Source: a virus. From it: a stretch of DNA of 35,919 bases. The notes below the pieces were generated by a model, which had not been told where the DNA came from, made no database searches, and worked only from the letters and a program-made list of their open reading frames with translations. The DNA lies in IMG/VR virus record IMGVR_UViG_3300010370_000105, positions 1 through 35,919 of that record; one strand, 5' to 3'. How positions within the stretch are numbered: position 1 is the first letter of the stretch; each line of letters starts with the position of its first letter. Of this stretch, positions 10,601-28,452 are shown piece by piece. Made by a program: the position numbers and the translations under genes.

Positions 10601-10629
10601 ATCATAACAGACTCTTTAGATTTTGTCAA
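10601..10629 (-). promoter_or_regulatory. Sigma70-type promoter of the RlpA-like gene
   Basis: TTGACA at 10629-10624, a 17-nt spacer, TATGAT at 10606-10601. It overlaps the 3' end of the endonuclease gene at 10626. Confidence 0.83.
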
Positions 10630-11240
10630 GTGAATAATTTAGTTTCTAGATTATTGGTATAATCCTCAAGAATTTTATTTGAAATTCTTTTTAAAGATTT
10701 TTTTATTCTAAGATCATATACTTCATTATAAGCATTATCAATTTCTTCAATTTTTTTTAACTGCCATCTTCTATGAGCTTCTATAGGATCTAAAAATTTT
10801 CCTAATATAATTTTTTTATTGTTAATTTCAATTTGTGAAATATATTTTCTAGAACTTTTACTATAATAAACACCCAATGGATATTTACTATTTTTTGTCC
10901 TTCCGATGGTTAAAAATGAATTTATTTTATGCGAAACGAAGATGCAAGTTTCTGGTCCATATAATTTATTTCCTGGAACAAGAAAATCTTTATCCAATTC
11001 CTTACCCACCCAATCTTGATTTTCCATCCAAGATTTGAAATTTGAAAATGTTTTCCACTCATCAACAACTTCACATTCACTATAACAAGGATTATAAATG
11101 TGAAACTTTTTATCGTAACACCTCCTCAAAATATGATACCATCTACTATAATAAGGACAACAATATCTTTTCCCATTTTCTATGTACGTTAGAGTGTAGG
11201 AAGCATCATTTATACCTACTCCCCATATTAATTTTTTCAT
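10626..11240 (-). CDS. HNH-type homing endonuclease with AP2-like DNA-binding domain
   Basis: A 204-residue protein. The N-terminal half has YSRWYHILRRCYDKKFHIYNP, then VVDEWKTFSNFKSWM and LDKDFLVPGNKLYGPETCIF, the arrangement of the widespread phage HNH/AP2 endonucleases. The AP2-like part follows: YPLGVYYSKSSRKYISQIE ... ILGKFLDPIEAHRRW, a three-strand DNA-binding fold. It sits between two cell-wall enzyme genes and uses the same dyad, terminator and late promoter module as two other endonuclease genes here. The canonical HNH histidines are not all obvious, so activity is uncertain. Confidence 0.82.
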   Translation of the reverse strand: MKKLIWGVGINDASYTLTYIENGKRYCCPYYSRWYHILRRCYDKKFHIYNPCYSECEVVDEWKTFSNFKSWMENQDWVGKELDKDFLVPGNKLYGPETCIFVSHKINSFLTIGRTKNSKYPLGVYYSKSSRKYISQIEINNKKIILGKFLDPIEAHRRWQLKKIEEIDNAYNEVYDLRIKKSLKRISNKILEDYTNNLETKLFT

Positions 11241-11267
11241 ACTTGAATTTAAACTGGTGGTCTTTTA

Positions 11268-11275
11268 TATTTATA
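11268..11275 (-). promoter_or_regulatory. Late promoter box TATAAATA (AP2/HNH gene)
   Basis: An exact late box inside the dyad loop, 28 nt before the gene start. Confidence 0.75.
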
Positions 11276-11279
11276 CAAC

Positions 11280-11301
11280 AAAGGCACTAAAAAGTGCCTT
11301 T
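11280..11301 (-). terminator. Terminator hairpin upstream of the AP2/HNH gene
   Basis: An 8-bp stem AAAGGCAC/GTGCCTTT with loop TTTTTA, followed by GTTG. The stem is strong and the U-tract weak. Confidence 0.6.
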
Positions 11302-11348
11302 GCCTGACTTGAAAAGAACCACCAGTTCAAGCAATATTATTTAGTTGT

Positions 11349-11900
11349 TTAACTTTCATTATGTTGCAATTTTTCAAAATATTTTCTAGCATAATAATCT
11401 CGTGGTCCTTTAATCCCCCACCTCAACCATTTATTAGCAAGTCTCATATAATCACTAATTGTTTTACCTGGAGTTTTCAACCCTTCTTCAATAAGTTTCC
11501 AATCCCTTTCATAAAACATATACTTAATTTGAGTATCAAGATTGGAAGGATTCCCACCTATAGCAGCAGCAAATTTACCTAATCCATAATACCTATCGCT
11601 TGAGGTCCATTGTGAAATTCCAAATCCACCACTACGACATTGATGGTAATGGACCTTTCCTCCATTTTCACAAGCTTTTGGTTCAAATTGTGACTCTTGC
11701 TTGATATTTGCCATAATAGTTGCAAGAGCATTTTTGTCTGTAATTCCTTGGTCTTGTAATGCTTCTAAAACATAAGATTCATTTTCACTGCAGTCCCTAC
11801 AAATGTATCGTTTTTGTTCAAAAGTATTTGTTGCTTTTGCTGAAAGAGGTGAAAGCAACGTTAAGGCAATTAAAATCGTAGATAGTTTTTTAAGTAGCAT
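11349..11900 (-). CDS. Secreted lysozyme-like protein (phage tail lysozyme type)
   Basis: A 183-residue protein with a signal peptide (MLLKKLSTILIALTLLSPLSAKA). The lysozyme-like fold shows IMANIKQESQFEPKACE with the probable catalytic Glu in KQES, SGGFGISQWTS, LDTQIKYMFYE and RLANKWLRWGIKGPRDYYARK. This is the phage tail lysozyme family, which cleaves peptidoglycan glycan strands. It carries the same structured leader as the RlpA-like gene, so the two are probably controlled together. The AP2/HNH endonuclease gene lies between them. Confidence 0.82.
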   Translation of the reverse strand: MLLKKLSTILIALTLLSPLSAKATNTFEQKRYICRDCSENESYVLEALQDQGITDKNALATIMANIKQESQFEPKACENGGKVHYHQCRSGGFGISQWTSSDRYYGLGKFAAAIGGNPSNLDTQIKYMFYERDWKLIEEGLKTPGKTISDYMRLANKWLRWGIKGPRDYYARKYFEKLQHNES

Positions 11901-11983
11901 TAATTTGAATAGAATTCAGCATCTGTTTAGAGAAAGCGCACATCCTTCTTCTCAGAAGGCAGTCTCCACAGCTCTAGGTTTTT
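11901..11983 (-). promoter_or_regulatory. Structured 5' leader L2 of the lysozyme-like gene
   Basis: The second copy of the leader in front of the RlpA-like gene. The GNRA hairpin is identical; the outer CCGT/ACGG helix changes to CTGT/ACAG on both strands, preserving pairing. Both leaders end in TTCAAATTAATG. Confidence 0.6.
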
Positions 11984-11988
11984 AAAAA

Positions 11989-12008
11989 ATTCTCAAAAAT
12001 ATGAGAAT
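11989..12008 (-). terminator. Intrinsic terminator after the 55-residue ORF
   Basis: Minus-strand ATTCTCA, loop TATTTT, TGAGAAT, then TTTTT. A CTAAATAAT late-like word lies just upstream of it at about 12015-12023. Confidence 0.75.
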
Positions 12009-12028
12009 TAAGTGATTATTTAGGGAAC

Positions 12029-12196
12029 TTAAAACTCAATAGAAACAATTTCAAGTTCATCCTCTTCAGGATCAATCCATTCAAGAAATTCTGAAAGAAT
12101 TGCCTCTGAATCGGCTTCAGATAGACTTTTGTCTTCAGAACGTTCAATAGACCATTCCCGAATGTGAGATACGATGTCTTCAGTTGTAACTAGCAT
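12029..12196 (-). CDS. Small acidic hypothetical protein
   Basis: A 55-residue ORF beginning MLVTTEDIVSHIREWSIERS and ending ELEIVSIEF. It is strongly acidic. A sigma70 promoter lies 25 nt upstream of its start and a terminator follows, so it is a compact single-gene unit, probably early. Function unknown; small acidic early proteins are common host-takeover candidates in T4-like phages, but nothing specific supports that here. Confidence 0.65.
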   Translation of the reverse strand: MLVTTEDIVSHIREWSIERSEDKSLSEADSEAILSEFLEWIDPEEDELEIVSIEF

Positions 12197-12220
12197 AATG
12201 TGTTTTGTGTAGACCGTACC

Positions 12221-12249
12221 ATCTTAGTCTGATTTTTGGGTTTTGTCAA
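12221..12249 (-). promoter_or_regulatory. Sigma70-type promoter of the 55-residue ORF
   Basis: TTGACA at 12249-12244, a 17-nt spacer, TAAGAT at 12226-12221. Confidence 0.75.
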
Positions 12250-12278
12250 GTTCTACATAGAATAGATTAGAAATCATT

Positions 12279-12692
12279 ATGACTTGGTTGTATCAGAAAA
12301 AAGAGTTTACAGAAGTTCCAAAAAATATGGAGGGATTTGTATATCTCATTACAAATCTTGAGAATGGAAAGAAGTATATCGGAAAGAAGAACTTCTGGAC
12401 TCGGCAAAAAGATCGTAAGACTGGAAGGCGCAAAAAGAAAGAAAGTTCTTGGGGAAATTATTGGGGATCTTGTGATGAGTTGAAAGAAGATGTAAAAAAT
12501 CTCGGAGAAGAAAAGTTTCTCCGAGAAATTTTATATCTGTGCCCTCATAAAAAATCTATGAGTTTTTATGAGGCGATGGAACAATTCAAAAGAGATGTGA
12601 TATTACGAGAAGATTATTATAATACAAATATTGAAGGGAAGTTTTTTTCTAGTGAAGTAGAAAGAATTTATGGAATTGTGAAATCAGAATAG
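12279..12692 (+). CDS. GIY-YIG endonuclease-like protein, the only plus-strand gene
   Basis: A 137-residue protein. FVYLITNLENGKKYIGKKNFW matches the GIY-YIG signature (here VYL ... YIG, with basic residues after it), followed by a basic stretch (RQKDRKTGRRKKK). SSWGNYWGSCDELKEDVKNLG and SFYEAMEQFKRDVIL resemble short phage GIY-YIG enzymes such as Seg-type proteins. It lies head to head with the 12029 gene and its 3' end overlaps the convergent 12684 ORF by 9 nt. The opposite orientation suggests independent insertion. No consensus promoter is clear on this strand. Confidence 0.82.
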   Translation: MTWLYQKKEFTEVPKNMEGFVYLITNLENGKKYIGKKNFWTRQKDRKTGRRKKKESSWGNYWGSCDELKEDVKNLGEEKFLREILYLCPHKKSMSFYEAMEQFKRDVILREDYYNTNIEGKFFSSEVERIYGIVKSE

Positions 12693-12839
12693 ACGAATTT
12701 CATCAATATGATCTAATACTTTATTTAAGTATTGACTAGCAAGTTCCTTTTCCTGCCAAGATTTTGGTTCATTTTGAAGTTGGAATTTTAGTTTATAAAT
12801 TTTAGATTTGAGTTCGTAGATATCAGTAATGTGAAGCAT
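12684..12839 (-). CDS. Small helical hypothetical protein
   Basis: A 51-residue ORF beginning MLHITDIYELKSKIYKLKFQ and ending HIDEIRLF. It is predicted almost fully helical with coiled-coil spacing. It overlaps the 3' end of the plus-strand GIY-YIG gene and fills the gap before the terminator at 12871. Function unknown. Confidence 0.6.
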   Translation of the reverse strand: MLHITDIYELKSKIYKLKFQLQNEPKSWQEKELASQYLNKVLDHIDEIRLF

Positions 12840-12870
12840 CTTAGGAGAGCAAGATGTAACTACTTATGAA

Positions 12871-12896
12871 AAAAGAGGGCTTGAAGGCCCTCTTTT
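12871..12896 (-). terminator. Terminator with T-runs on both strands
   Basis: Stem AAAAGAGGGC/GCCCTCTTTT around a short loop, ending in six Ts on the minus strand and four on the plus strand. It ends the structural gene at 12933. Confidence 0.83.
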
Positions 12897-12932
12897 GAAT
12901 TTAAATTATGTTTTTATTAGAATGTTGTAAGA

Positions 12933-14321
12933 TCAATGGGCACTAGTAATTCTTGTGAGAATTTTATTAGCACGTCTTCTTCCTTCTGGTGTTCCCTCTC
13001 TTCTAGCTCTTTTTGCTGCGAGGTTTGCTCTTTGTGATGGAGACATAGACAATCCAGATTCTGTTCCTCTCGCATAATAATGTTTGATTCCACCATCACT
13101 TTTTCCCGATCCTTTACTGCCAGGATGCTCATCATCATAATGACCACTATAAGTAGTTCCACCCTTAGGAATATAGCCACCAAATCCTCTGACTTCATCA
13201 AGAATCTCAGAAACCCACTCTTCACTCATTGAGTTTATAATTGCTTGTGCAGACTCAAGAGACTCAGCGTAACCTTCGTCTAGAAGATGAGAAAGAATGA
13301 ATTCGTGCTCTTCTGGAAGACCATGCCTTCTTCTGAATTGCTTCACCTTTCCTTGATCCTTAAATCTTGTATCTACAGCCTTTTGCCTCATGGTACGAGC
13401 AGCATCAAGTCTTTCTTTACCTTGTAGGTTCCTTGAAGGGGGGGCTTTAGTGACATTTAAAGCCCTAGATTTACCTTCGGGTGATTTAACACTCATTACA
13501 ACATTTGCTTCATAAATCTCCATCATATCATCCCAAGTATAATCGCTCAAATCATAACCTTCATCAAGAAGAGTGTTTACCCAAAGTTCAAAATCTTCAG
13601 CTCTCATTGCCTTACCTAATCTCTGACCAGCTCTATATGTACTTCTAACTGCGGGAATACTCGCCGCAATTCTTCCAGCAGCACCACCAATAGCTCTGCC
13701 AACACCTGGAGCTTCTCTTGATGCCTGTTTTGCAGCAACTCTAAGATATTGGGCTGGTTTAGTATCACTGACATCTTGCCAGGTCTTACCTAAAGTTTGG
13801 AGACCCCTTTTAGTCTGTTCGATATCCTTTTTCCCCTTTTCCATTGCCCATCCGATCAAGCCACCCATTTTAGATTTTGTTTGTGCTGGAGAAGCAGGTG
13901 GTTTTGGTTTTGATGACACAGCAGTTGCAGCTTGGCTACGAAGAGCAGCTTTCATGCCAGAAGGTCTTGATGATGCTTCAGTTTCTGATGCTCTTCTAGC
14001 AGCTTTTTCTCTACGTAGACGAGTAATTGCAGCGGTTCTTGCGCCACCTCTCAATTGACCGACCGATTTTCCAGTTTTTGTAACTGGTTCAATTCTTCCA
14101 CTTCTTCTGGCTTCAGTTAATTCACAAACGTCTAAAATCTCATAAACCAATTCATTAAATTCCTCAACACCAAGTTCTTCAATGAGGTCTTCTACGTCCT
14201 CCTCATTTAGACCTTGCTCATAAAAATATTCTGCAGCAATTTCGGCTTCTTCTGAAATCTCCGGTTGAGAATATACTTGTAAATAAGCCTCTTGAAGATT
14301 GATAATGTCTTTACCGTTCAT
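12933..14321 (-). CDS. Large putative structural or internal protein, LLDEGYA/MSEEW family
   Basis: A 462-residue basic protein with the leader MNGKDIINLQEAYLQVY; LQE-A fits the gp21-type cleavage site. An acidic helical segment (EEDVEDLIEELGVEEFNELV) follows, then a long Ala/Arg/Lys-rich region. Repeats of the DEGY module occur: NTLLDEGYDLSDYTWDDM near 255 and LSHLLDEGYAESLESAQAI with MSEEW near 355. Composition and modules match the proteins at 8520, 9236 and 24980. Late box CATAAATA and a terminator lie upstream. Internal head packaging is inferred. Confidence 0.72.
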   Translation of the reverse strand: MNGKDIINLQEAYLQVYSQPEISEEAEIAAEYFYEQGLNEEDVEDLIEELGVEEFNELVYEILDVCELTEARRSGRIEPVTKTGKSVGQLRGGARTAAITRLRREKAARRASETEASSRPSGMKAALRSQAATAVSSKPKPPASPAQTKSKMGGLIGWAMEKGKKDIEQTKRGLQTLGKTWQDVSDTKPAQYLRVAAKQASREAPGVGRAIGGAAGRIAASIPAVRSTYRAGQRLGKAMRAEDFELWVNTLLDEGYDLSDYTWDDMMEIYEANVVMSVKSPEGKSRALNVTKAPPSRNLQGKERLDAARTMRQKAVDTRFKDQGKVKQFRRRHGLPEEHEFILSHLLDEGYAESLESAQAIINSMSEEWVSEILDEVRGFGGYIPKGGTTYSGHYDDEHPGSKGSGKSDGGIKHYYARGTESGLSMSPSQRANLAAKRARREGTPEGRRRANKILTRITSAH

Positions 14322-14344
14322 TTTTCTTTGAGATACTTTTTAGT

Positions 14345-14352
14345 TATTTATG
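14345..14352 (-). promoter_or_regulatory. Late promoter box CATAAATA
   Basis: It lies 23 nt upstream of the 14321 start, directly behind the nrdB terminator. Confidence 0.7.
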
Positions 14353-14355
14353 AAA

Positions 14356-14386
14356 AAAGACACTTCAGTAATTCTGGAGTGTCTTT
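14356..14386 (-). terminator. Intrinsic terminator after nrdB
   Basis: AAAGACACT/AGTGTCTTT stem with one internal mismatch beyond it, then a T-run on the minus strand. Confidence 0.83.
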
Positions 14387-14391
14387 GAAAA

Positions 14392-15540
14392 TTAGAGTTT
14401 AAAATCTAGAAAACTATCAGGTTTCATATCTTGATTAAGTCCACCAACAAGATAAGAAGTAATTTGAACTTCTTGGGGGGCAACTTGTACTCCTTTACTC
14501 TTCAACCAATTATCAGTCCAAGGAAGAGGATTGGTATTAGCTGGAACATTATAAACAGGTTTTAAACTAATAGCTTTCATTCTCCGATTTGCAATCCATT
14601 CAATATAATTACAAAGAAGAGTTTCATTTAATCCAATAAGAGATCCATTTTTAAAAAGATAATTTGACCAACGTTTCTCTTCATTTACGGCTTTCTCAAA
14701 AGCCTTATAAGTCCATTGTTCTTCTTCTTTTGCAATCCTAATCATATCAGGATCATCGCCAGATTTCCATTTGGATAAGATATTTTGAGTAATATTTAAA
14801 TGAACCGATTCATCTCTTGAAATTAATGAGATAATTTTTGCACTTCCTTCCATCAATTTCAATTCACCAAATGCAAAAGAACAAGCAAAGGAGACAAAAA
14901 ATCTAATCCCCTCCAAAATATTCACAGTCATTATGGCACGGTAAAGTTTTCTCTTTATTTCATAAAGTTCAAACTTACCAATTTCAGTCCCTTCATTATT
15001 GAATTTCCATAAATTAGAAGATGAGTAAGTTTGAGCACTTCGAATATAATCATCATAAGAATCCGTTACACTCTTTGCTCTTTCCAAAATATTATCATCT
15101 TTAATAATGGTATCAAATACTTCTGAAGGATTCGCATAAACATTTTTGATAATGTAGGTATATGAGCGACTATGAATCATTTCCATAAATTCCCATACTG
15201 TCATACACGCTTCCAATTCAGGAAGTGAACAATAAGGAAGAAATGCTATTCCGGGGCCACGAGCGTTCACAGAATCAAGCATAATTTGATATTTTAAATT
15301 TGAGGTAAAAATATGTTTTTGTTCTGGACGCAAGGTCTGATAATCAGATCTATCTTTTTGCAATGTTATCTCCTCAGGTCTCCAAAAGAAACTAAGTTGT
15401 TGTTGTGTAAGTTTTTCAAAGATTGGATACTTATATTCATCATACCTTTGAATTCCCAATGGAGCACCAAAAAACATAGGCTGTTTTTTGGTATCTACTT
15501 CTTCTGAATTAAAAACGGTCATACCTTCTACTTTAGACAT
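14392..15540 (-). CDS. nrdB: Ribonucleotide reductase small (beta) subunit, class Ia type
   Basis: 382 residues. It houses the diiron-tyrosyl radical used by NrdA to make deoxyribonucleotides. All expected residues are present: D89, E120, H123 and E210, E244, H247 as iron ligands, and Y127 as the radical tyrosine in IHSRSYTY. The offset from the E. coli numbering is constant at +5, then +6. The C-terminal tail ends SFLDFKL, for docking with NrdA. It follows nrdA after 12 nt and closes the primase-nrdA-nrdB unit, ended by the terminator at 14356. Confidence 0.97.
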   Translation of the reverse strand: MSKVEGMTVFNSEEVDTKKQPMFFGAPLGIQRYDEYKYPIFEKLTQQQLSFFWRPEEITLQKDRSDYQTLRPEQKHIFTSNLKYQIMLDSVNARGPGIAFLPYCSLPELEACMTVWEFMEMIHSRSYTYIIKNVYANPSEVFDTIIKDDNILERAKSVTDSYDDYIRSAQTYSSSNLWKFNNEGTEIGKFELYEIKRKLYRAIMTVNILEGIRFFVSFACSFAFGELKLMEGSAKIISLISRDESVHLNITQNILSKWKSGDDPDMIRIAKEEEQWTYKAFEKAVNEEKRWSNYLFKNGSLIGLNETLLCNYIEWIANRRMKAISLKPVYNVPANTNPLPWTDNWLKSKGVQVAPQEVQITSYLVGGLNQDMKPDSFLDFKL

Positions 15541-15552
15541 AGTTCTCCTAAT

Positions 15553-17844
15553 TTAAACATTACACGCTAAACACTCTTCTTCATCTGAAGATAAAATTTC
15601 AGAAATTAAATCTTCTAGATTTTCAGAAGAAACATCATCAGTTTTACCATCATAAGTATTGTGATAATAAGCAGTTTTATACCCATTTTTATACATCAAA
15701 AGAAAATCATTAACAAGAACACTAATTGGAACCTCATTATTAACATAATTTTGTGGATTGTAGCTAGTATTTGCACTAATGCCCTGATCAAAAAACTTTT
15801 GGATCATAGCAACTATGTTAATATATCCTTCATTTGAAGGCATATCCCAAAGAAGAGTATAATTGTTTTTTAACTTATTATATTGAGGTACAATCTGCTT
15901 AAGAGTTCCTTTTTTCGATTGTTTGATGGAAAGGTAATCTCTTGGAGGTTCAATGCCATTTGTCGCATTACAAGAAACAGATGAACTTTCTGTTGGTGGT
16001 TGAGCCGAAAGTGTAGTATGACGAAGACCATATTTTAAAATATCTTGACGCAATTCTTCCCAATCGTGTTGATATGGATCATTACAAATTGAATCAATTT
16101 CTTTTTTATATGTGTCAATCGGAAGAATTCCATCCGAATATTTTGTATTTACAAAATTATCACAGACTCCCTTTTCTTTTGCTAATTGAACAGAAGATTT
16201 TAAAAGATAATATTGGAAACTTTCGCTTAAACCGTGAATTGCACTCCAAGCTTTGGGATCATCATATTTAAATCCAAGTTTTGCAAGATAATGAGCAAGA
16301 CCAATATAACCAATACCTAATGACCTACTAGCTCTAGCCGTAATTTCGGCTGCTAACACTGGATACTCTTGATGATCAATCAATTCATCCAAAAACCTAA
16401 CGGAAAGATCACAACATTCTTCAAGTTCCTTATCGGATTTTATTATCCCAACATTAACACAAGAGAGAATACAAAGAGCAATTGCTCCAGATTTATCATC
16501 AATATGATTGATCGGAGATGTTTTTAAAAGCACTTCCATACAAAGGTTGCTCATAGTAACTTGATCCTTAAATGGACCGTGAGAATTACAATGATCAATA
16601 TTCATTAAATAAATTCTACCAGTTTCAGCTCTTTCTTTTAAAATATCAATTATCAATTCTTGAGCCTTAACGACTTTTTTAGGAATTAATGGATCATTTT
16701 CATATTTAACGTAAAGTTCATCGAATCCATCCATTCCAAATTTTTCATAAAGATTAGGAACATCATTGGGCGAAAATAAGGTTATATTTTCGTTTCTGAT
16801 AAATCTTTCATAAAAAATTTTACTCAATTGAATCGCATAATCTAGATTACGAACACGATTGTCTTCAGTTCCTTTATTATTTTTTAGAACAATAATATCT
16901 TCAATTTCTTGATGCCAGATAGGAAAAAATGTTGTTGCAGATCCACCCCTAATTCCATTTTGCGTGCAACATTTTACTGTAGACTCGAATTTTTTAAGAA
17001 AAGGAATAACACCAGTATGAATTACTTCACCATTACGTATTTTTGAGTTAATGCCACGAATTCTACCTGAATTTATACCAATACCAGCACGCTGAGCGAC
17101 ATATCTACCAATTGCCATATCAGAACTAAAAATACTTTCAAGAGTATCATCTACATCAACCAAAACACAACTACTATATTGCCTTAGAGGAGTACGAACA
17201 CCAGCTAGAATTGGAGTTGGAATATTAATTTTATGCTTACTAATGGCATCATAATATCTTTTTACATAAAACATACGGGTCTCTTTAGGATACTTTGCGA
17301 ATCCAGTGAGAGCAATCATTATGTACATAAATTGAGGAGTTTCATAAATCTTTCCAGTACTGCGATTTTGTACTAGATACTTATCGACTACTTGACGGAG
17401 ACCAGCATAAGTAAATAGATAATCTCTTTCGTGATCTATAAAAGAATTGGCCTTATCAATTTCCTCTCTTGAATAATCTTTATGGATCTCGGAATCATAA
17501 ACCCCTAGAGATACACATTTATTAATATGTTCCTCTAAATGAGGCATTTCAATTCTTCCTCCATAAATTTGTTTGCGAATTGAAAAAAGAAGCAATCTAG
17601 AGGCAACATATTGATAATTTGGGTGTTCCAAGTCAATAAGATCGCTTGCAGAACGAATCAGAATCTCTTGAACTTCTGCAGTCGTAATTCCATCATAAAA
17701 CTGAATTCCAGATGTCATCTCCACTTGAGACGCAGAGACCCCAGAAAGACCGCTACAAGCCTCTTCTACCATCAGATGCATCTTTTCAAGATGTAGTGGC
17801 TCAAGGCGACCATCACGCTTTTTAACTTTGATACCGTTGCTCAT
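15553..17844 (-). CDS. nrdA: Ribonucleoside-diphosphate reductase large (alpha) subunit, class Ia
   Basis: 763 residues. It starts with an ATP-cone (residues about 5-95, VKKRDGRLEPLHLEKMH). Active-site residues are visible: C226 (QYSSCVL), N433, C435 and E437 (SNLCMEVLL), C462 (LSCVNVG), with the C-terminal CxxC pair at 758 and 761 (ECLACNV) for re-reduction. It converts NDPs to dNDPs with NrdB. The start overlaps the primase stop as ATGA. The complete set of residues indicates an active enzyme that supplies dNTPs during replication. Confidence 0.97.
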   Translation of the reverse strand: MSNGIKVKKRDGRLEPLHLEKMHLMVEEACSGLSGVSASQVEMTSGIQFYDGITTAEVQEILIRSASDLIDLEHPNYQYVASRLLLFSIRKQIYGGRIEMPHLEEHINKCVSLGVYDSEIHKDYSREEIDKANSFIDHERDYLFTYAGLRQVVDKYLVQNRSTGKIYETPQFMYIMIALTGFAKYPKETRMFYVKRYYDAISKHKINIPTPILAGVRTPLRQYSSCVLVDVDDTLESIFSSDMAIGRYVAQRAGIGINSGRIRGINSKIRNGEVIHTGVIPFLKKFESTVKCCTQNGIRGGSATTFFPIWHQEIEDIIVLKNNKGTEDNRVRNLDYAIQLSKIFYERFIRNENITLFSPNDVPNLYEKFGMDGFDELYVKYENDPLIPKKVVKAQELIIDILKERAETGRIYLMNIDHCNSHGPFKDQVTMSNLCMEVLLKTSPINHIDDKSGAIALCILSCVNVGIIKSDKELEECCDLSVRFLDELIDHQEYPVLAAEITARASRSLGIGYIGLAHYLAKLGFKYDDPKAWSAIHGLSESFQYYLLKSSVQLAKEKGVCDNFVNTKYSDGILPIDTYKKEIDSICNDPYQHDWEELRQDILKYGLRHTTLSAQPPTESSSVSCNATNGIEPPRDYLSIKQSKKGTLKQIVPQYNKLKNNYTLLWDMPSNEGYINIVAMIQKFFDQGISANTSYNPQNYVNNEVPISVLVNDFLLMYKNGYKTAYYHNTYDGKTDDVSSENLEDLISEILSSDEEECLACNV

Positions 17845-21038: not shown

Positions 21039-21064
21039 GAGACTTCAATATTTTTTGAAGTCTC
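21039..21064 (-). terminator. Intrinsic terminator after the 62-residue membrane protein gene
   Basis: A 10-bp stem GAGACTTCAA/TTGAAGTCTC, loop AAAATA, then seven Ts. Confidence 0.88.
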
Positions 21065-21085
21065 CTATCTCAAAGTTTTTTAAAC

Positions 21086-21271
21086 TCAAGGAGTGAGATC
21101 TTTAGCTCCCCTTTCCTTTAGTTTAGTTTGAAGCTGAATAAGAATAAAGGAAAGAATACCATTTGATTTAATCCTTGGATTTGCACCCAGAGCCTCAGAA
21201 ATTAGAAACAGAATGGTTGCAATTAGACCCTCATTTGCTGATATAAAAGCAAGAATTGCGGCAAGAGACAT
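21086..21271 (-). CDS. Small membrane protein
   Basis: 61 residues from the second of two adjacent ATGs. AAGGAGG lies 5 nt before it, while the first ATG at 21274 is only 2 nt away. A hydrophobic N-terminal half (SLAAILAFISANEGLIATILFLISEALG) suggests one or two passes, followed by a basic tail. The size and hydrophobicity would suit a holin-like or particle-associated peptide, but the role is unknown. A late box at 21297 and terminator 21039 bound the unit. Confidence 0.7.
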   Translation of the reverse strand: MSLAAILAFISANEGLIATILFLISEALGANPRIKSNGILSFILIQLQTKLKERGAKDLTP

Positions 21272-21296
21272 CATAACCTCCTTATATGTGTACTAT

Positions 21297-21304
21297 TATT
21301 TATG
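21297..21304 (-). promoter_or_regulatory. Late promoter box CATAAATA
   Basis: It lies 26 nt upstream of the small membrane protein start, just after the stop of the 761-residue gene. Confidence 0.7.
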
Positions 21305-21308
21305 AAAA

Positions 21309-23594
21309 TCAACCACTGAGAGCAGCAACGTTTACACCCTTTAGAGCTGCTTGTTTTAATGCACTCGCTGTCTTTGCATCCGATGCTTTATTAGCTGCAA
21401 TTGCAGTTAAAACTTTAGCTGTCGCAGAAACATTTTGCTGTGGCTTTCTATTTGTGGGAGTAATTTCTGGCATACTATCAGATTGCTCTATAATTTTTGC
21501 AAGCATTCTAATGGTAAGTTCTTCTCGAATTGCCTCTTCTTTTGTTACTTTTTTAGGTATTCCTTCGTGCTTTGTTTTTGCAAAATCACGAATTTGCTTT
21601 TCAGTCAGCGTATCAACAATTTTCAAAACCGCAGAACTCACTTCAGATCTCGGAGTAGTTCCTCTTTTAACTGAAAGAGCAAGACCAAAGAGTTTTTGTT
21701 GTTGCTCGCTTTCTGATTTTTCGGTTAGTTGATATGATTCAGATTTCATAGATTTTAGAAGTTTATCCAAATCACTACCGGACTCATTTAATTCTGGATT
21801 GTCGATTTCTGGCTTTCCTCTTCTTCTAGACCTAGAAGAAGTTGATGATGACGGTGGTGTTGAAGATGCTGGAGCATTTCCTCTTCTAGATGGAGTTGAT
21901 GTTGATGCTGATTTACCACCTTTCCCTTTACCTTTTTTGGAAGAAGTAACACTACTTGCAGGAACTGTAGTTGTAGTTACTTTAGGTGATGTTGATGAAG
22001 CTTCCGCTGCAGCCGCTTCTTTTTTACGCTGAGCTGCTTGTTTCAATGAAACTCTTACTCCTCTAGAAGTCTCCTTATGGGCAGCTCTAGATGGAGAACT
22101 AGGAACTCTAGTTCTAAAAGATTGTGTTCTAGCTTCTTGTTCTTTGGAAAAATTTGATTCCGATGGTTTTTCAGATGAAGAACTATAAGGTCTTGGAGTT
22201 CTTACACCGGATTTAGAATGTGCCTTACTTGGTGTCTCATCACTTACTGAAACTTTTTTAATCTCCGGTTCCTTTTTCTTTTCTCCGGCAACTTCAATTC
22301 TTTTTCCTCCACCAACACCACTATAAGTTCTTGAAGCTCTTTCACCGGATTTAGAATGTGCGGGATGAGGCTTTCCGTGTTCGGTGCTCAATTTATGTCC
22401 AATATAATGAGCATATCCAGATAATGTTTTTCTTAATCCTTTAAGTATGCCATCTTTAGCAGTCTGACGAACTCTTGGTTGATTAGAAGTGCTAGAAGTA
22501 TCTGATGCAGATTGAGTTACTTGAACTCTTCTTCTTGATTGATTAGAAGTTGCTGATGGCCTTTCACTTGAGGTAACTCTAGATCTTGAGGGCTCAGAAT
22601 TTGTTACTCTTGATTCAGAAGAACGTGCTCTAGTTCTTCCTCTATCACTACTTGAGGTGACTCTAGATCTTGAGGGCTCAGAATCTCTTTCACTTGAGGT
22701 GACTCTAGATCTTGATGGTGCTTCTTCTTCATCATCATCGTCCTTCTCTGCCCCTTTATATCCTCTTACAGCACCTTTACCTAACTCTTGTGCTCCCCTT
22801 ACCAATGCTCTTGCCCCAAGACCAGCAAGATAACCAGGAGCACGAGCAATTTTTTTGGCTGCACCCTTTGCAAATCTTTTTAGACGACTCAAAACTCCAC
22901 GCTTTCTTGGATTATCTTCTTCGGTTAGTAATTGAAATGAGTTCTCAATAGATTCTAAAATTGATTCCTCAATTTCTTCTAATTCATAACCTTCTTCTAA
23001 TGCTTCAATGAAAAACTCATAAACAACCTCTTCTAGAAGTTCATCTGTAACCGCAAGAAGTTCTAATGGATTCAACTCTTCTAAAATGCATTCTTGGGAG
23101 TATTCTTCCATTTCAAGAAGTGTTCCGCCCATTTTTTCTACACATTCATTTGCGGACATACCAGAGAGACGATCTCCAGTATTAATTCTGGGATTAATTT
23201 CAATATTATTTTTTACTTTTTTTTCTACAATTTTTTCAGTATTTTTTTCTTTTCCAATTTCAGCAATTTCAGCAATTTCAGAAAGATCTTCTCTCCAGTT
23301 TGAATATCCTTCTTTTACTGATTTCTTTTTACTTTTACGCAATTTTTTAAAGTCTTGAGAAGTCAATTTACCATAAGGAGGAGCAACATCAATTTTATCT
23401 TGGTCGCCAATCAAAGCTTCAGAAACCTTTCTTTTACCTCCCATTTCATCTTTACCCAAACGTCCAGCAATAACATCACCTCTAGTTATTTTATCATAAG
23501 GAGGATAGTTATTTGCAAGATTACCATCATTTTTCTTTTTATTCTTTCTAGCTTCTTTAATATATCGTGAAACTCTTAAAGTATTAGAATTCAT
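21309..23594 (-). CDS. Large putative internal or structural protein with Ser/Arg repeats
   Basis: 761 residues. The leader MNSNTLRVSRYIKEARKNKK has IKE-A, a possible prohead-protease site. An N-terminal segment with PPYDKITRGDVIAGRL and PPYGKLTSQDFKKLRK is followed by an acidic helical region (EELNPLELLAVTDELLEEVV). Then comes a long basic Ser/Arg region with tandem copies of SRSRVTSSE, and the C terminus is a helical domain ending KQAALKGVNVAALSG. The strong charge segregation suggests a DNA-contacting head protein. Function not known. Confidence 0.72.
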   Translation of the reverse strand: MNSNTLRVSRYIKEARKNKKKNDGNLANNYPPYDKITRGDVIAGRLGKDEMGGKRKVSEALIGDQDKIDVAPPYGKLTSQDFKKLRKSKKKSVKEGYSNWREDLSEIAEIAEIGKEKNTEKIVEKKVKNNIEINPRINTGDRLSGMSANECVEKMGGTLLEMEEYSQECILEELNPLELLAVTDELLEEVVYEFFIEALEEGYELEEIEESILESIENSFQLLTEEDNPRKRGVLSRLKRFAKGAAKKIARAPGYLAGLGARALVRGAQELGKGAVRGYKGAEKDDDDEEEAPSRSRVTSSERDSEPSRSRVTSSSDRGRTRARSSESRVTNSEPSRSRVTSSERPSATSNQSRRRVQVTQSASDTSSTSNQPRVRQTAKDGILKGLRKTLSGYAHYIGHKLSTEHGKPHPAHSKSGERASRTYSGVGGGKRIEVAGEKKKEPEIKKVSVSDETPSKAHSKSGVRTPRPYSSSSEKPSESNFSKEQEARTQSFRTRVPSSPSRAAHKETSRGVRVSLKQAAQRKKEAAAAEASSTSPKVTTTTVPASSVTSSKKGKGKGGKSASTSTPSRRGNAPASSTPPSSSTSSRSRRRGKPEIDNPELNESGSDLDKLLKSMKSESYQLTEKSESEQQQKLFGLALSVKRGTTPRSEVSSAVLKIVDTLTEKQIRDFAKTKHEGIPKKVTKEEAIREELTIRMLAKIIEQSDSMPEITPTNRKPQQNVSATAKVLTAIAANKASDAKTASALKQAALKGVNVAALSG
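22555..22720 (-). repeat. Tandem coding repeats (SRSRVTSSE units)
   Basis: About 33-nt near-identical units near 22564, 22650 and 22690 encode EPSRSRVTSSE-like peptides. Synonymous differences are few, so the expansion looks recent. Confidence 0.75.
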
Positions 23595-23595
23595 T

Positions 23596-24888
23596 TTAAC
23601 AAGCTCTTGCTTTTTTTTCTTTATATTTATTTATCAAATTCACTCCGTAAGGCTTTGCTCCAGGTTGAAGATATTTTGCGTTTGTTCCAATCACACCTGG
23701 AGTCATTTTTGCATAGTGAATAAAAGCTCCGGTAGTTCCAACTAAAGTATTTGGATGAATTTTATCTCTCATTGGACTATCCATTTTCACTTCAGTATAT
23801 TCCATTACGTCTTTGATCCAAGATTTAAACATAATGTCCTCTTCAGTCACACAAATTAAATAATTGGTTCCTCTACGAATAATCTTTCCAACTAGACCAG
23901 TATTTAAATTTTGGACTTGTTCTCCCAATTTAAAAATATCTCCTTTGATATAATTTTCACGAAGATTTTTGATGTCGTATTTTGGAGCAATTTCCCATAA
24001 GGAATAAGATTCATTTTTTAGTTTAGCTTTTTTTAATTTCATTCCTTGACGAACAGAATCAAATAAAGATCTAGTTTCCCCATCATCTAATGCTTTTGGA
24101 GTTCCTCTACGGAATGCAGCAAAATCATTATTCACTACGGCTTTTCTCATTTTTGATGCAGAAACTCCTTCCACACTTTCAGAATCTGCATCAAAAACAC
24201 CAGCAGTAATTACACGAATCTCATTAAAATTATACAGTTGCCTATTATATTTTTGAGCTAGATTATCAAACTCTGCTTGACGATCCGATCCTACTACAAT
24301 ATTTACATTTTCATATCCTTCTTCTTCACAAGTAATCAGAACATCAAAAATAGATTTCATATTCTCATCATTGATAATCAAATCCTCAAAGTCAGGAAAA
24401 GCCATCTTCATATAATGAATTTTAGTGTCAGGATTCAAAGGATTTTTCTTTGGATCTTGAATTCTTGATGGATAAATCTTGATGTCCCCACCGGCAGCAA
24501 ATTTAATAGATGCCTTTAAAAGTTTTTCGTGGCCAATAGTAGGTGGATTAAATCTTCCAAATACAATCGTAACAGTAGAACCTTCTTCCGGTGCTGGTTC
24601 TTGTTCTTGTGCTTTTTGTTTTGATTTAGCAGATACTGGCGATTGAGCGACTGTCTTTGGGAGAATTTTTGGTCCGGGTGTTGCTTGTTGAGTTTCTGTT
24701 GGTTCTTGTGGTTTTCCGCCTTCTCTTCCATCTATAAATTGAAGTTGCCCTTTTATGGTTCTTGCAACCATCTTTCCAGAACGATCAAGCCATCCCCCAT
24801 GCATATCGCCTACTAAGCCAAGTTTCTTAGCACGCTCTGCTGCCAATGAAGTTCTTGCTTCTGATAGAAAATAAGAAAAACTTTTCAT
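23596..24888 (-). CDS. Capsid-leader protein with NMN-adenylyltransferase-like domain
   Basis: 430 residues. The leader MKSFSYFLSEAR is close to the T4 capsid-targeting sequence MKTYQEFIAEA, and LSE-A at residues 8-11 would be the cleavage site. After a Pro/Gln linker, residues about 105-260 form a nucleotidyltransferase domain. GRFNPPTIGH (111-120) is the (H/T)xGH motif and SASKMRKA (243-250) the second conserved motif of NMN adenylyltransferases. The C-terminal part (IFKLGEQVQNLNTGLVGKII) looks like a small barrel. It may be an enzyme packaged in the head; that is inference from the leader. Confidence 0.78.
   Translation of the reverse strand: MKSFSYFLSEARTSLAAERAKKLGLVGDMHGGWLDRSGKMVARTIKGQLQFIDGREGGKPQEPTETQQATPGPKILPKTVAQSPVSAKSKQKAQEQEPAPEEGSTVTIVFGRFNPPTIGHEKLLKASIKFAAGGDIKIYPSRIQDPKKNPLNPDTKIHYMKMAFPDFEDLIINDENMKSIFDVLITCEEEGYENVNIVVGSDRQAEFDNLAQKYNRQLYNFNEIRVITAGVFDADSESVEGVSASKMRKAVVNNDFAAFRRGTPKALDDGETRSLFDSVRQGMKLKKAKLKNESYSLWEIAPKYDIKNLRENYIKGDIFKLGEQVQNLNTGLVGKIIRRGTNYLICVTEEDIMFKSWIKDVMEYTEVKMDSPMRDKIHPNTLVGTTGAFIHYAKMTPGVIGTNAKYLQPGAKPYGVNLINKYKEKKARAC
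23628..23635 (-). promoter_or_regulatory. Late promoter-like box GATAAATA
   Basis: It lies 34 nt upstream of the 23594 start, within the 3' end of the preceding gene. Confidence 0.5.
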
Positions 24889-24908
24889 ATTAAAAATGAA
24901 TATACTTG

Positions 24909-24916
24909 TATTTATT
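24909..24916 (-). promoter_or_regulatory. Late promoter-like box AATAAATA
   Basis: It lies about 20 nt upstream of the 24888 start, directly behind terminator 24929-24956. Confidence 0.6.
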
Positions 24917-24928
24917 CGGCAAAAAAAT

Positions 24929-24956
24929 TCCCTCTTAACTTTTATGCTAAGAGGGA
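24929..24956 (-). terminator. Intrinsic terminator after the 490-residue gene
   Basis: A 9-bp stem TCCCTCTTA/TAAGAGGGA, 10-nt loop, then ATTTTTTT on the minus strand. Confidence 0.87.
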
Positions 24957-24979
24957 TTTTGATTAATGGTTAAATTTTA

Positions 24980-26452
24980 TCATTTAATTTCTACATTATG
25001 TTTGACTCTTCCTGTAGTTTGAGGCTTTGGCTTTTGTCCTAGATAGACACCTTTAACACCCTTTTCCTTTTTGAGCATTTTATCAATTACTTTTTGCAGC
25101 TCATCAGCTCCGGTTCTGATATTTCGTGACCACTCTCGTCTTCTTTCAGGACTCATTGCTTCAAATTCTGCACGAATATCTTCACTAAGAATTTCATCAA
25201 GAATCTCAGATCTCCATCCTTCACTCATATTTGCCATAATCGCAGTGGCATCTTCTTCGGTTTCAGCATAACCTTCAGAAACAAGATAATCTAATACATC
25301 ATCATAAAAATCAAGAGTTTCCACTTCATCTTCAAGATAAGATTCCACAAGAGTATCAAATTCATTTTCAGTAAGATCTTCAAGAATCTCAAAAGCATCA
25401 TCAATATTCACTGCATAACCTTCTTGAATTAGGTCTTCTAGAATGGTTTCTAGAATGTAATCAAAGTCTTCACCCAAACCCAATCTGTTTCTAAGTTTAA
25501 CATTTTGTTGTGTGGTTTGCATACCTCTTTGTTGAGGAGTAAGAGTCCTCCCTTTTTTAGTCTTTCCTACTGAAGGAAGAGCAGTCCTTTGGGGTGTTCC
25601 AGATATAGCAATTCTTTGAGGTCTACCAGGAAGAGCGGGTCTACCAGTAATATCTCTAACCGAAACTTTATCTACTCTTGGCCTATATGAAGGGAGTGCT
25701 GGTCTTTGTGGAGTTCCGGAAAGTGCAGGTCTTTGGGATGCACCAGGAAGCATTTTAACCGGCTTTCTTTCAAACTCACTAGTATCGGTAGGTGCCTTTC
25801 TTGCTGCTCTTCTAGCGGCGCGAGCTTGAGTTCTTTGTTCTGCTTCTCTTCCAGCTTGGCCACTAAATTCCTGTCTAGCAGCAGAAGCACCAGCTTTGGC
25901 AGCTCTACCAACTCTTCCGAGAAAACCCTTTACTCTTTCTTTGGCTCTTTGAATTTTTTCTCCGGCAGCTTGAACTTTTCTTTGAGCACCACGTTTGATA
26001 TCAGCGGCACCACCAGCAACGGCTGAAACTGCACCACCTGCAAGAGTTTTAGCTCTTCCTACCTTTCCGCGAATATTTTCAGCCGCCTTAGATGAAGCTT
26101 GCCCCAATCTTTGCATTGCAAGCCTTCCACGGGCGCGGGCAGGACGAGTTGCTTTTTGGAATTGTGCCCTTCTCTCAGCTTCGCGAGCTTCTCTTTTTCT
26201 TGCTCTAACAGGTGACTCTGCCTCAAACAGATATTCTCCATCAAAAATATCAAGACACTCATCAAGAGTATATTCTCCTTCGGAAAGAATCTCTTCCATT
26301 ACTTGGACGAGTTCATTATCACTTAGATCATCAAGAAAAGAAAGGTCATCCTCCATTAGTTCTTTTTCGTAATCTAGCTCATCTCGCAGCTCATCGTCAT
26401 ACACTGCGGTATAAGCTTCCATTAAACCGACAATATGTTTTGTAGTACTCAT
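24980..26452 (-). CDS. Large putative structural or internal protein, LLDEGYA/MSEEW family
   Basis: 490 residues. The leader MSTTKHIVGLMEAYTAVY has LME-A at residues 10-13. Acidic helical segments flank a central Ala/Arg-rich region and repeats of RPALSGTPQRPALP type. Three DEGY-like modules are visible (LIQEGYAVNIDDAFEI, YLVSEGYAETEEDATAI, then MSEGWRSEIL). It shares these modules with the genes at 8520, 9236 and 12933. A late box TATAAATA lies 29 nt upstream. A role in the head, possibly as an internal protein, is inferred. Confidence 0.72.
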   Translation of the reverse strand: MSTTKHIVGLMEAYTAVYDDELRDELDYEKELMEDDLSFLDDLSDNELVQVMEEILSEGEYTLDECLDIFDGEYLFEAESPVRARKREAREAERRAQFQKATRPARARGRLAMQRLGQASSKAAENIRGKVGRAKTLAGGAVSAVAGGAADIKRGAQRKVQAAGEKIQRAKERVKGFLGRVGRAAKAGASAARQEFSGQAGREAEQRTQARAARRAARKAPTDTSEFERKPVKMLPGASQRPALSGTPQRPALPSYRPRVDKVSVRDITGRPALPGRPQRIAISGTPQRTALPSVGKTKKGRTLTPQQRGMQTTQQNVKLRNRLGLGEDFDYILETILEDLIQEGYAVNIDDAFEILEDLTENEFDTLVESYLEDEVETLDFYDDVLDYLVSEGYAETEEDATAIMANMSEGWRSEILDEILSEDIRAEFEAMSPERRREWSRNIRTGADELQKVIDKMLKKEKGVKGVYLGQKPKPQTTGRVKHNVEIK

Positions 26453-26480
26453 TTGAAAATAACTGGAAATATTCTATTCT

Positions 26481-26488
26481 TATTTATA
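26481..26488 (-). promoter_or_regulatory. Late promoter box TATAAATA
   Basis: An exact consensus upstream of the 26452 start, overlapping the 3' side of the 26490 gene. Confidence 0.75.
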
Positions 26489-26489
26489 T

Positions 26490-26909
26490 TTATGGATATT
26501 TTACCCCAAGATGACCCCCACTTCGCCCAGTTCCCTTATCTCTAAGTGTTGATCCAGGTTTTCCAGATCCCCTATCACCAAATCTACCACCAACAGAAGT
26601 TCCGCTATTTTCACCTGCAGGTGATGGAATATTTGCAAGACTTCCACTGCTTCCTCTATTATCCCGATTTCTTATTTGTGGTCTACCCCCACCTGGAGTT
26701 GGTTGTGTTGATTTATGTGCCGGTTGATCGTTATTAAGCTCTCGGCCCAATCTTTCTCTAATTTTCAATTCTTTAATACGTTCAGCTATGTGAACATATA
26801 AATCCATGTTATTCGCTTTCATCGCATCATTAGCTCTTTTTGTCAATTCAGCAATTTCTTGAGCGTGTTCACCTCTAGCTTCTAAAATAAAATCCGAAAA
26901 AGTCTTCAT
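26490..26909 (-). CDS. Small Gly-rich protein with T4-type capsid-targeting leader
   Basis: 139 residues. The leader MKTFSDFILEAR closely resembles that of T4 internal proteins (MKTYQEFIAEA), and ILE-A at residues 8-11 matches the gp21 cleavage rule. A charged helix follows (EIAELTKRANDAMKANNMD), then a disordered Gly/Ser/Arg/Pro tail (GGRFGDRGSGKPGST). Disorder and positive charge suit a DNA-associated internal protein. A CTAAATAG late-like box lies about 20 nt upstream. Ejection into the host is a possible but untested role. Confidence 0.7.
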   Translation of the reverse strand: MKTFSDFILEARGEHAQEIAELTKRANDAMKANNMDLYVHIAERIKELKIRERLGRELNNDQPAHKSTQPTPGGGRPQIRNRDNRGSSGSLANIPSPAGENSGTSVGGRFGDRGSGKPGSTLRDKGTGRSGGHLGVKYP

Positions 26910-26938
26910 TATTGTCTACTCTATTTCTGACTATTTAG

Positions 26939-27046
26939 TTAAACTAGCTCTTGAGGATGGTGCTCATAATCTTGTGTTTTATTCTTTCTTCTTCTAATTT
27001 TCTTTATTCTTTCTTCTAGAACTTGAATCCACTCAGAAAAATACAT
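26939..27046 (-). CDS. Very small late-type ORF
   Basis: 35 residues: MYFSEWIQVLEERIKKIRRR, then basic and polar residues to LV. A TATAAATA late box (27061) and an AGAG-like ribosome site 2 nt before ATG precede it, behind a terminator. Short but well equipped with signals. Function unknown. Confidence 0.5.
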   Translation of the reverse strand: MYFSEWIQVLEERIKKIRRRKNKTQDYEHHPQELV

Positions 27047-27060
27047 TTCTCTTTTTTGAG

Positions 27061-27068
27061 TATTTATA
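27061..27068 (-). promoter_or_regulatory. Late promoter box TATAAATA
   Basis: An exact late box, directly behind terminator 27074-27091, serving the 35-residue ORF and the 26490 gene. Confidence 0.75.
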
Positions 27069-27073
27069 AAAAA

Positions 27074-27091
27074 GGCTCCGATTAAGGAGCC
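27074..27091 (-). terminator. Intrinsic terminator
   Basis: Minus-strand GGCTCC, loop TTAATC, GGAGCC, then six Ts. Confidence 0.87.
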
Positions 27092-27096
27092 TAAGA

Positions 27097-27273
27097 TCAG
27101 CCAAGAGTTTTTTCTAGTTCTTGATCTAATTGATTCATTACATTGCGAAGTCCTACAATTCGTTCTGGTGCAAATTCTTGACTATATCCAGCAGTGGAAG
27201 AATCAAGAATTTGAAGAACTTCAAGTGCAGATTGAATGGACAATTTTAGAGTTACTTGTTTTTCTTTTGTCAT
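27097..27273 (-). CDS. Small hypothetical protein downstream of the endonuclease gene
   Basis: A 58-residue ORF beginning MTKEKQVTLKLSIQSALEVL and ending QELEKTLG. Its ATG overlaps the stop of the endonuclease-like gene (ATGA at 27273-27270). It looks like a short beta-helix helper protein of the replication region. Before the endonuclease gene arrived it would have been next to mazG. Function unknown. Confidence 0.65.
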   Translation of the reverse strand: MTKEKQVTLKLSIQSALEVLQILDSSTAGYSQEFAPERIVGLRNVMNQLDQELEKTLG

Positions 27274-28343
27274 TTGTGTTCTCCTTTATGATATTTTTCA
27301 GACCAAATTACTGTGTATTTATCGGTCAAAGACCTTGCAAATTCTTCTTTTATTTTATCAATCTCATAACTTTCTTTTATTGTAGTTTTACTAGAGTTCC
27401 AAGGAGTTGCCTTTTCACTTCCCCTTTCAATTACATCTTGTTCCTTATAATGAAATGGTCCGTGATATTCCAAAATCTCAATAATGTGATTTTTATCTCC
27501 CCTATGACCAGGTTTAAATACAACTAAATCATAAAGTGCCCATCTTCCATTAATATTATACCCCCATTCAAAAAGATTATTTTCTTTATCCGAAAAGGCA
27601 CATTGACTCAAATCATAATTATTTTGTTGAATATAGTTACGAATGAAATCTCTAGATTCAATACTTTGATTTGATATGCAATAACTATTTCTTTTTATTC
27701 TAGTTCCAACAGATTTCTGCGCGATCTCTGGAAGTTTCATAGCACAAGAAACTCCATATTTTTTAAAATTAGTTTTTCTAGCTTTTTCTTTAATTATTTC
27801 AGACCTTACTCCATATTCAACTCCATAATTTTTCAAACAAGTCTGGATTTTCTTTTGATGTATTTCAGCGGATTGGGATGGATTTTCTACTCCATATCGC
27901 TCAAGATTAGTCGCTTTAATTTTTTCTTTTACATTTTCATTTTGAAGAACACATTCGGTTCCATACTTTTTAATATTAGATTGTCTTCTTTTCAATTCTG
28001 AACATTTTTTACATCCAGAATATCCCCTAATATGGTCTAAAGGAAGTTGATAAAATTCTCCGTGTAAAGGGCAAATAATTTTAACTTTTGTTGATTGATT
28101 AATATAATTTACTTGAGAATAATCATAAAACTCTCCTTTATCTTCTCTTTGTGTTTTATATCTTTTTATTAACTTTTCAGTGTTTAATTTTTTAAGATGG
28201 ATTCCTTTAGGTTTTCTTGAAATATTATATTTAAGTAATAATCTAGAAATATTATAATAATTAAATATTTTACATATTTCTTTTTGACTCAAATTTAAAA
28301 CATAATAATGATAATACAATTCTTCTTTTGTTGGTCTAGCCAT
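27270..28343 (-). CDS. Homing-endonuclease-like protein with KYGVE repeats
   Basis: 357 residues. The N terminus has a helix-turn-helix-like segment (YYHYYVLNLSQKEICKIFNY). CPLHGEF ... GYSGCKKC gives a zinc-type pattern. Several copies of a DNA-binding repeat follow (NIKKYGTECVLQ, NLERYGVENPSQS, CLKNYGVEYGV, NFKKYGVSCAM). The C-terminal part (FEWGYNINGRWALYDLVVF ... ILEYHGPFHY) looks like a Vsr or PD-(D/E)xK-related nuclease core of the EDxHD group, with D, E and H visible. It lies between mazG and a small gene and carries the same control module as two other endonuclease genes. Confidence 0.8.
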   Translation of the reverse strand: MARPTKEELYYHYYVLNLSQKEICKIFNYYNISRLLLKYNISRKPKGIHLKKLNTEKLIKRYKTQREDKGEFYDYSQVNYINQSTKVKIICPLHGEFYQLPLDHIRGYSGCKKCSELKRRQSNIKKYGTECVLQNENVKEKIKATNLERYGVENPSQSAEIHQKKIQTCLKNYGVEYGVRSEIIKEKARKTNFKKYGVSCAMKLPEIAQKSVGTRIKRNSYCISNQSIESRDFIRNYIQQNNYDLSQCAFSDKENNLFEWGYNINGRWALYDLVVFKPGHRGDKNHIIEILEYHGPFHYKEQDVIERGSEKATPWNSSKTTIKESYEIDKIKEEFARSLTDKYTVIWSEKYHKGEHK

Positions 28344-28369
28344 TTTAGTATTCGGTTGACGGCATTATT

Positions 28370-28377
28370 ATTTATAC
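28370..28377 (-). promoter_or_regulatory. Late promoter box TATAAATA (27270 gene)
   Basis: An exact late box in the dyad loop, 27 nt before the start. Confidence 0.75.
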
Positions 28378-28385
28378 ATTAAAAA

Positions 28386-28403
28386 GGAGGGATTTCTCCC
28401 TCC
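28386..28403 (-). terminator. Intrinsic terminator after mazG
   Basis: A 7-bp GC-rich stem GGAGGGA/TCCCTCC with GAAA loop, then TTTTT. Confidence 0.87.
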
Positions 28404-28452
28404 ACCTTACAGGTGATTGCCGTCAACCTCAGGCACTATTATTTAGTAGGTC

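Follow-up and report, generated by a model that had tools for sequence, protein, structure and literature searches.

Three homing-endonuclease genes in a 35,919-nucleotide (nt) stretch of viral DNA, positions 1 to 35,919 of IMG/VR record IMGVR_UViG_3300010370_000105, are preceded by leaders of one common architecture in which two complementary segments, arm1 and arm2, flank a terminator and a late promoter. This whole stretch is referred to as the window, and positions are counted along it unless a locus is named. From comparison of these leaders with others found in phage contigs and isolates we conclude that the leader is probably a portable RNA lock on free-standing homing-endonuclease cassettes of T4-like cyanophages. 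According to this model, transcripts entering from upstream genes would mostly be stopped at the terminator, and read-through transcripts would carry arm1, which would pair with arm2 beside the start codon and block translation. Because the late promoter separates the arms and arm2 sits at about +1, only late transcripts would lack arm1 and hence be translated. The arm sequence would be free to change provided that both arms changed together, and one leader type could be reused in front of unrelated nucleases. The transcription start sites, termination efficiency, translation block and timing of the block in this model are features that we infer from sequence.

Architecture of the window leaders

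All three endonuclease leaders lie on the minus strand. Each contains, from 5' to 3', a late-promoter-like (A/C)TAAATA motif (P1), a hairpin holding arm1 (H1), a G+C-rich terminator hairpin with a T tract placed between arm1 and the late promoter, the late promoter TATAAATA itself (P2), arm2 and the endonuclease start. A preliminary description of the window had reported arm, terminator, TATAAATA, matching arm and start at these genes, with different arm sequences and protein families; both observations were confirmed, and P1 (CTAAATA in two of the cassettes) and the arm1-bearing H1 hairpin are details that it lacked. Exact complementarity between arm1 and arm2 extended over 14/14 nt in the HNH cassette, 10/10 nt in the AP2/HNH cassette and 11/11 nt in the DUF7487 cassette. 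Exact arms of at least 10 nt were present at three of the eight TATAAATA sites of the window, compared to a maximum of 5–7 nt at the remaining five; of 4000 random pairings of window segments, 11 reached 10 nt. One of the five armless sites (6549–6556) is the P1 motif of the HNH cassette.

The HNH homing endonuclease (268 aa, 5640–6446; phrog_655, E=1e-12) is preceded by P1 in the form TATAAATA, followed by H1 (6516–6544), in which the segments TGCCTTA/TAAGGTA form the stem and arm1 (TTATTAAGTTCGCA, 6527–6540) lies in and around the loop. The terminator hairpin (GGGAGCC-CAAAA-GGCTCC-TTTTCT, 6487–6513), P2 (6477–6484) and arm2 (TGCGAACTTAATAA, 6459–6472), after which comes AGGAG, complete this leader. 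In the AP2/HNH cassette, P1-like CTAAATA (11338–11344) precedes H1 (CTTGAA/TTCAAG, 11308–11332) with arm1 (AACTGGTGGT, 11318–11327) in its loop, the terminator hairpin (CAAAGGCAC-TTTTTA-GTGCCTTTG, 11279–11302), P2 (11268–11275), arm2 (ACCACCAGTT, 11252–11261) and the endonuclease gene (204 aa, 10626–11240; phrog_953 HNH endonuclease, E=1e-83). These arms can be extended to 18 nt at 83% complementarity. H1 was assigned by RNA folding and covariation in both cassettes, and by folding in the third, where the hairpin region around arm1 (28404–28433) is imperfect. This third cassette, which encodes a KYGVE-repeat endonuclease (DUF7487, 357 aa, 27270–28343; PF24308, E=3e-18; phrog_12131 homing endonuclease, E=3e-17), contains P1-like CTAAATA (28440–28446), arm1 (GGTTGACGGCA, 28418–28428), the terminator hairpin (GGAGGGA-GAAA-TCCCTCC, then TTTTT, 28386–28403), P2 (28369–28376) and arm2 (TGCCGTCAACC, 28354–28364).

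Association of the leader with endonuclease genes

An unbiased sample was drawn from IMG/VR with the pattern CTCCTTTT-N0-12-TATAAATA, which represents terminator plus late promoter and is blind to arms and genes. This search yielded 66 distinct sites with an open reading frame (ORF) start nearby, and the endonuclease reference set used to score them excluded the sample. An endonuclease-like ORF followed all 10 full-leader sites and none of the 56 sites without the leader (p=5e-12). P1 was also present in all 10 leaders, although it had not been a selection criterion. A scan for dyads enclosing a terminator and TATAAATA, to see whether endonuclease genes are enriched behind them, had been proposed in the preliminary description, and the outcome in this sample was positive. 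A second pattern sample comprised 74 distinct sites. Exact arms of at least 9 nt were found at 64 of them, compared to 5.5% with the arms permuted. Eight sites had arms shorter than 8 nt; seven of these precede endonuclease-like genes and have near-complementary arms, mostly containing wobble pairs. At the eighth, L200, arm2 has been lost and the leader kept in front of a gene resembling T4 gp26.

The association also held when all late-promoter ORFs of the isolates S-SRM01, B23 and S-N03 were considered (p=5e-8). In these genomes 180 late-promoter ORFs were not endonuclease-like by the reference set and only four of them had arms of at least 9 nt, one of the four being an EndoVII-like nuclease with a perfect full leader. 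Terminator plus TATAAATA without arms is common upstream of structural genes, as would be expected if the pattern were due to chance or were a general late-gene feature of these phages. This explanation has a negligible probability and is refuted by the unbiased sample and the three-isolate comparison. The earlier proposal of modular control with late release that is useful for finding such genes is strongly supported.

The homing endonuclease family phrog_314 by itself was matched by 94 of 120 armed ORFs and by 11 of 120 unarmed ORFs. Many armed ORFs outside this family match other endonuclease families, and many unarmed endonuclease-like ORFs were found to carry leaders with wobble pairs. 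The collected set of leaders with this architecture (class I) comprises 128 distinct leaders, among which arm1 takes 79 different sequences, from the three isolates as well as cyanophage contigs. The nucleases behind the leader are of GIY-YIG, HNH, AP2-HNH, DUF7487, EndoVII-like and PD-(D/E)XK-like type, the last represented by L117 and L418 on the basis of weak profile matches and our own reading of the sequences. A hairpin lies between arm1 and P2 in 127 of the 128 leaders, and arm2 lies 0–7 nt downstream of the P2 TATAAATA. Two GIY-YIG endonucleases with armed leaders, L452:8983–9741 in S-SRM01 and L453:1501–2124 in B23, are annotated as 'translation initiation factor 2'.

A second scaffold (class II) was recovered with the pattern GCGTAAGTCCCAC-N3-20-ATAAATA, which gave 36 distinct sites, all 36 with exact arms of 9–14 nt; a permutation null is uninformative for these arms because few arm types occur. 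By inspection, nearly all of these sites precede endonuclease-like ORFs. The class II leader (L402–L451) is a structured element of the form GGGCAGCAAC-[arm1]-GTTGCGTAAGTCCCAC in which a CAAC/GTTG stem encloses arm1 in its loop and arm2 extends to the start codon. Class I leaders combine P1 with the terminator, whereas most class II members have neither. As arm1, a late promoter and arm2 at the start are common to both classes, we ranked a lock acting in cis first. The preliminary description had called the shared architecture convergent or modular. The modular part stands; class I looks inherited or swapped rather than convergent, though class II may be convergent.

Rfam searches gave no match for any of the three leaders of the window or for the class II leaders that were scanned, five loci being taken down to E=1. 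The abiF RNA was considered as the source of the class II scaffold because GTAAGTCCC is common to both, and was rejected since no class II locus scanned had an Rfam match. An abiF RNA does occur in the window (RF03085, 52 bits, E=5e-7) at 6643–6679 on the minus strand, in a tRNA cluster upstream of the HNH cassette, and is separate from the leaders; an abiF-like sequence also precedes a tRNA-like stretch in L281, near position 7122. From the same region of the window, the end of a tRNA-Arg gene (tct; 6564–6635, minus strand) directly adjoins P1 of the HNH cassette. T4 segB is likewise located in a tRNA region.

Pairing of the arms and function of the leader

Mismatches between arms, scored blind to type, comprised 25 G.U, 2 A.C and 17 others (p=6e-6). 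Tolerance of G.U pairs is thus confined to the transcribed sense strand. This argues for RNA pairing and against a double-stranded DNA operator, and the substitutions indicate that the arms covary and pair as sense RNA. Two homologues of the window HNH gene, L021 and L022, retain the architecture with entirely different arm sequences that are still complementary; in L001–L004, relatives of the AP2/HNH gene, matching arms were not apparent by eye. Conversely, arm ATTTGACCGCA precedes both a GIY-YIG (L086) and an HNH gene (L161), and a AACTGGTGGTT-type arm precedes the AP2/HNH gene of the window and a GIY-YIG gene (L060). The sharing of arms by different families, together with different arms on related endonucleases, agrees with exchange of the leader between nucleases. 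We also considered an autorepression like that of I-TevI, in which the endonuclease would bind the arms as half-sites of a DNA operator; in T4, operators resembling homing sites overlie the late promoters of the intron endonucleases (PMC2988022). Given the strand asymmetry of the mismatches and the common use of arms by several protein families, this possibility is very improbable and was rejected.

Covariation also extends to H1: its 3' half contained a complement to the 5' stem type of the same hairpin in 105 of 126 cases, compared to 197 of 882 for other stem types. On this evidence H1 is an RNA structure. The same intergenic site was compared in its occupied and empty states (L001 versus L294, L004, L326, L222, L206, L269 and L217; L004 versus L326, L206 and L001). 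The insert starts at the upstream stop codon and ends at the endonuclease stop, and P1, H1, the terminator, P2 and arm2 are therefore moved along with the endonuclease. Wherever empty sites allowed a comparison, the leader belonged to the inserted unit. At L200 (3013–3119), P1, H1, the terminator and P2 are intact, arm2 and the endonuclease are gone, and P2 now precedes the gp26-like baseplate gene; this locus is probably a scar of endonuclease loss.

Several observations bear on the read-through lock. Against it, some class I hairpins lack the T tract. The preliminary description had proposed two brakes, terminator and occlusion; with these hairpins and the terminator-free class II, the terminator is typical but not constant, and the two-brake scheme is one that we infer. 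In most class I leaders arm2 lies about 8–14 nt before the start and few have a clear Shine-Dalgarno sequence, so the translation block is a prediction only. In favour of the lock, the unpaired probability of the start region in folding predictions was 0.60 for late mRNA compared to 0.37 for read-through RNA and was lower in the latter in 115 of 123 leaders. About seven endonuclease-like genes of S-SRM01 and B23 have a late promoter without the leader, compared to about ten with it (our reading of the scan). The leader is therefore frequent and not universal, and of the general rule put forward in the preliminary description the strong endonuclease association stood and universality did not. 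Shared ancestry of the leaders means that the p-values exaggerate how independent they are, and the mismatch, H1 and hairpin counts are likewise uncorrected for it. Finally, a pure read-through lock leaves the presence of P1 just before arm1 and the conservation of H1 unexplained.

A rival explanation is an antisense RNA acting in trans, alone or in addition to the cis lock. P1 would be a weaker late promoter giving an RNA of about 57 nt, consisting of H1 presenting arm1 and then the terminator hairpin at which it ends, and this RNA would pair with the 5' end of P2 endonuclease mRNAs from the same or other genome copies, damping expression as copy number rises, as IS10 RNA-OUT does. The P1 motif was found in 117 of 121 armed leaders and 22 of 197 controls in a sample partly selected on P1. 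About 99% of leaders have A or C immediately before the TAAATA of this motif, which gives NATAAATA, a published cyanophage late promoter (PMC2984593), or CTAAATA; in L001 this base is supplied by the host flank. The H1 covariation, the joint occurrence of P1 and the terminator in class I with their joint absence from most class II members, the different arms of cassettes in one genome, and the stronger pairing of cognate arms (−17.6 kcal/mol versus −5.0 kcal/mol for non-cognate arms of the same genome) are also consistent with trans action. However, arm1 accessibility in the predicted small RNA was 0.56 compared to 0.60 for shuffled arms, and thus selection for an exposed arm1 was not found. 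Nor were arms within a genome clearly more orthogonal than arms of different genomes: cross-pairing at −10 kcal/mol or better occurred in 7% of cases within and 10% between genomes, a few duplicated sites inflating the former figure, and selection for arms distinct within one genome is suggestive only. H1-terminator units without arm2 were seen only at L200 and L215, with no target. The L215 unit (minus strand, position 1982) consists of P1, H1 with arm AGTTGGTGGTT and the terminator without P2 or arm2, lies before an unrelated ORF, and had no arm2 target in a search of its contig. Because arm1 is not unusually exposed, lone units are rare and TAAATA is often the stop codon of the upstream gene, we regard trans action as possible but doubtful. 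More doubtful still is the full elaboration in which each cassette carries a same-strand antisense gene (P1, H1 with arm1, terminator) for copy-number-dependent, cassette-specific silencing, with arms distinct per genome and two scaffolds evolved for the same job.

The overlap with stop codons raises another explanation for P1, namely that it is not a promoter but the left cassette edge, which would provide the gene upstream with stops in several reading frames. The TAA within TAAATA ends the upstream ORF in 27 leaders; in others the stop lies at +4 (21 leaders), at +14 (4) or just before the motif at −3 (17). In L001 and L004 the insertion sets in at the stop codon of the upstream gene. TAA alone would suffice for this purpose, yet TAAATA is conserved. 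The preceding base was A or C at all 27 in-frame TAA stops, compared to 61% of ordinary TAA stops in the same loci. Moreover, P1 and P2 have in common an nTA(A/G/T)TGC extension that is absent from other late promoters of these loci, and P1 is dispensable in most class II cassettes. An edge function in place of promoter activity is unlikely.

Two further features were noted. A clear plus-strand ORF of the window (12279–12692), at which no armed leader was detected, has a GIY-YIG-like start (GFVYLITNLENGKKYIGKK) and matches phrog_447, labelled NAD synthetase, as well as several families of homing endonucleases. A PhotoRC-II RNA (RF01717, 60 bits) is located at L337:19689–19782 on the minus strand of a contig that also bears endonuclease leaders.

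Comparison with known systems

With the portable lock, the few examples known from T4 would grow into a rule readable from sequence, which applies to many cyanophage contigs and to three isolates. The arms of this one leader type vary freely but always match each other, and in viruses of cyanobacteria from sea and fresh water the leader flags mobile cassettes encoding at least five types of nuclease. It helps to find genes, to correct annotation, as for the GIY-YIG genes of S-SRM01 and B23, and to set cassette boundaries. It also makes testable how selfish nucleases join the timing programme of their host, by a cis lock only or by a small RNA too.

The core mechanism is already known in T4-like phages (PMC2988022). 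For I-TevI, I-TevII, I-TevIII and segB of T4 and mobE of Aeh1, a late promoter lies inside a stem that blocks the ribosome binding site, such that early RNA is locked and late RNA is free; for I-TevI, segB and mobE this precedent is experimental (PMC2988022, PMC3014915). As in these hairpin-regulated endonucleases, the 5' arm here lies upstream of the late promoter and the 3' arm at the start, so that late RNA would lack the 5' arm; the leaders have in common with the T4 type the homing-endonuclease ORF, predicted start-occluding arms and a promoter placed to exclude the 5' arm. They differ in forming one transferable class before many nuclease families at many sites. The review text consulted describes no terminator between the arms, the mobE and segF terminators lying inside coding regions, and no second late-promoter motif or H1 hairpin (PMC2988022, PMC3014915). 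The T4 lysozyme gene e and soc are also similar in that TATAAATA lies in an inhibitory stem of early RNA and late RNA is translated, but these are ordinary late genes rather than mobile cassettes, and a terminator/H1/P1 module is not described for them (PMC3014915).

The candidate small RNA resembles IS10 RNA-OUT/RNA-IN in that the 5' end of a mobile-element nuclease mRNA would be paired by a small structured RNA (PMC5006887). RNA-OUT is made from the opposite strand, whereas the candidate, owing its complementarity to an inverted repeat, would be encoded on the same strand as the mRNA and upstream of it. The CfrI antisense RNA of S-PM2, which links psbA and the homing endonuclease F-CphI, is likewise encoded by a cyanophage and may control a homing endonuclease; it is an opposite-strand antisense RNA of about 225 nt at one locus, unlike the portable leader (cited in PMC2984593). 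No earlier description of such a transferable leader was found in the literature searched, subscription papers being outside the search. Reuse of the T4-type lock as a transferable leader across nuclease families thus seems new, and the parts that would be added to the T4 examples are a leader common to many cyanophage nuclease families, the terminator/P1/H1 module, a second scaffold and use as a marker.

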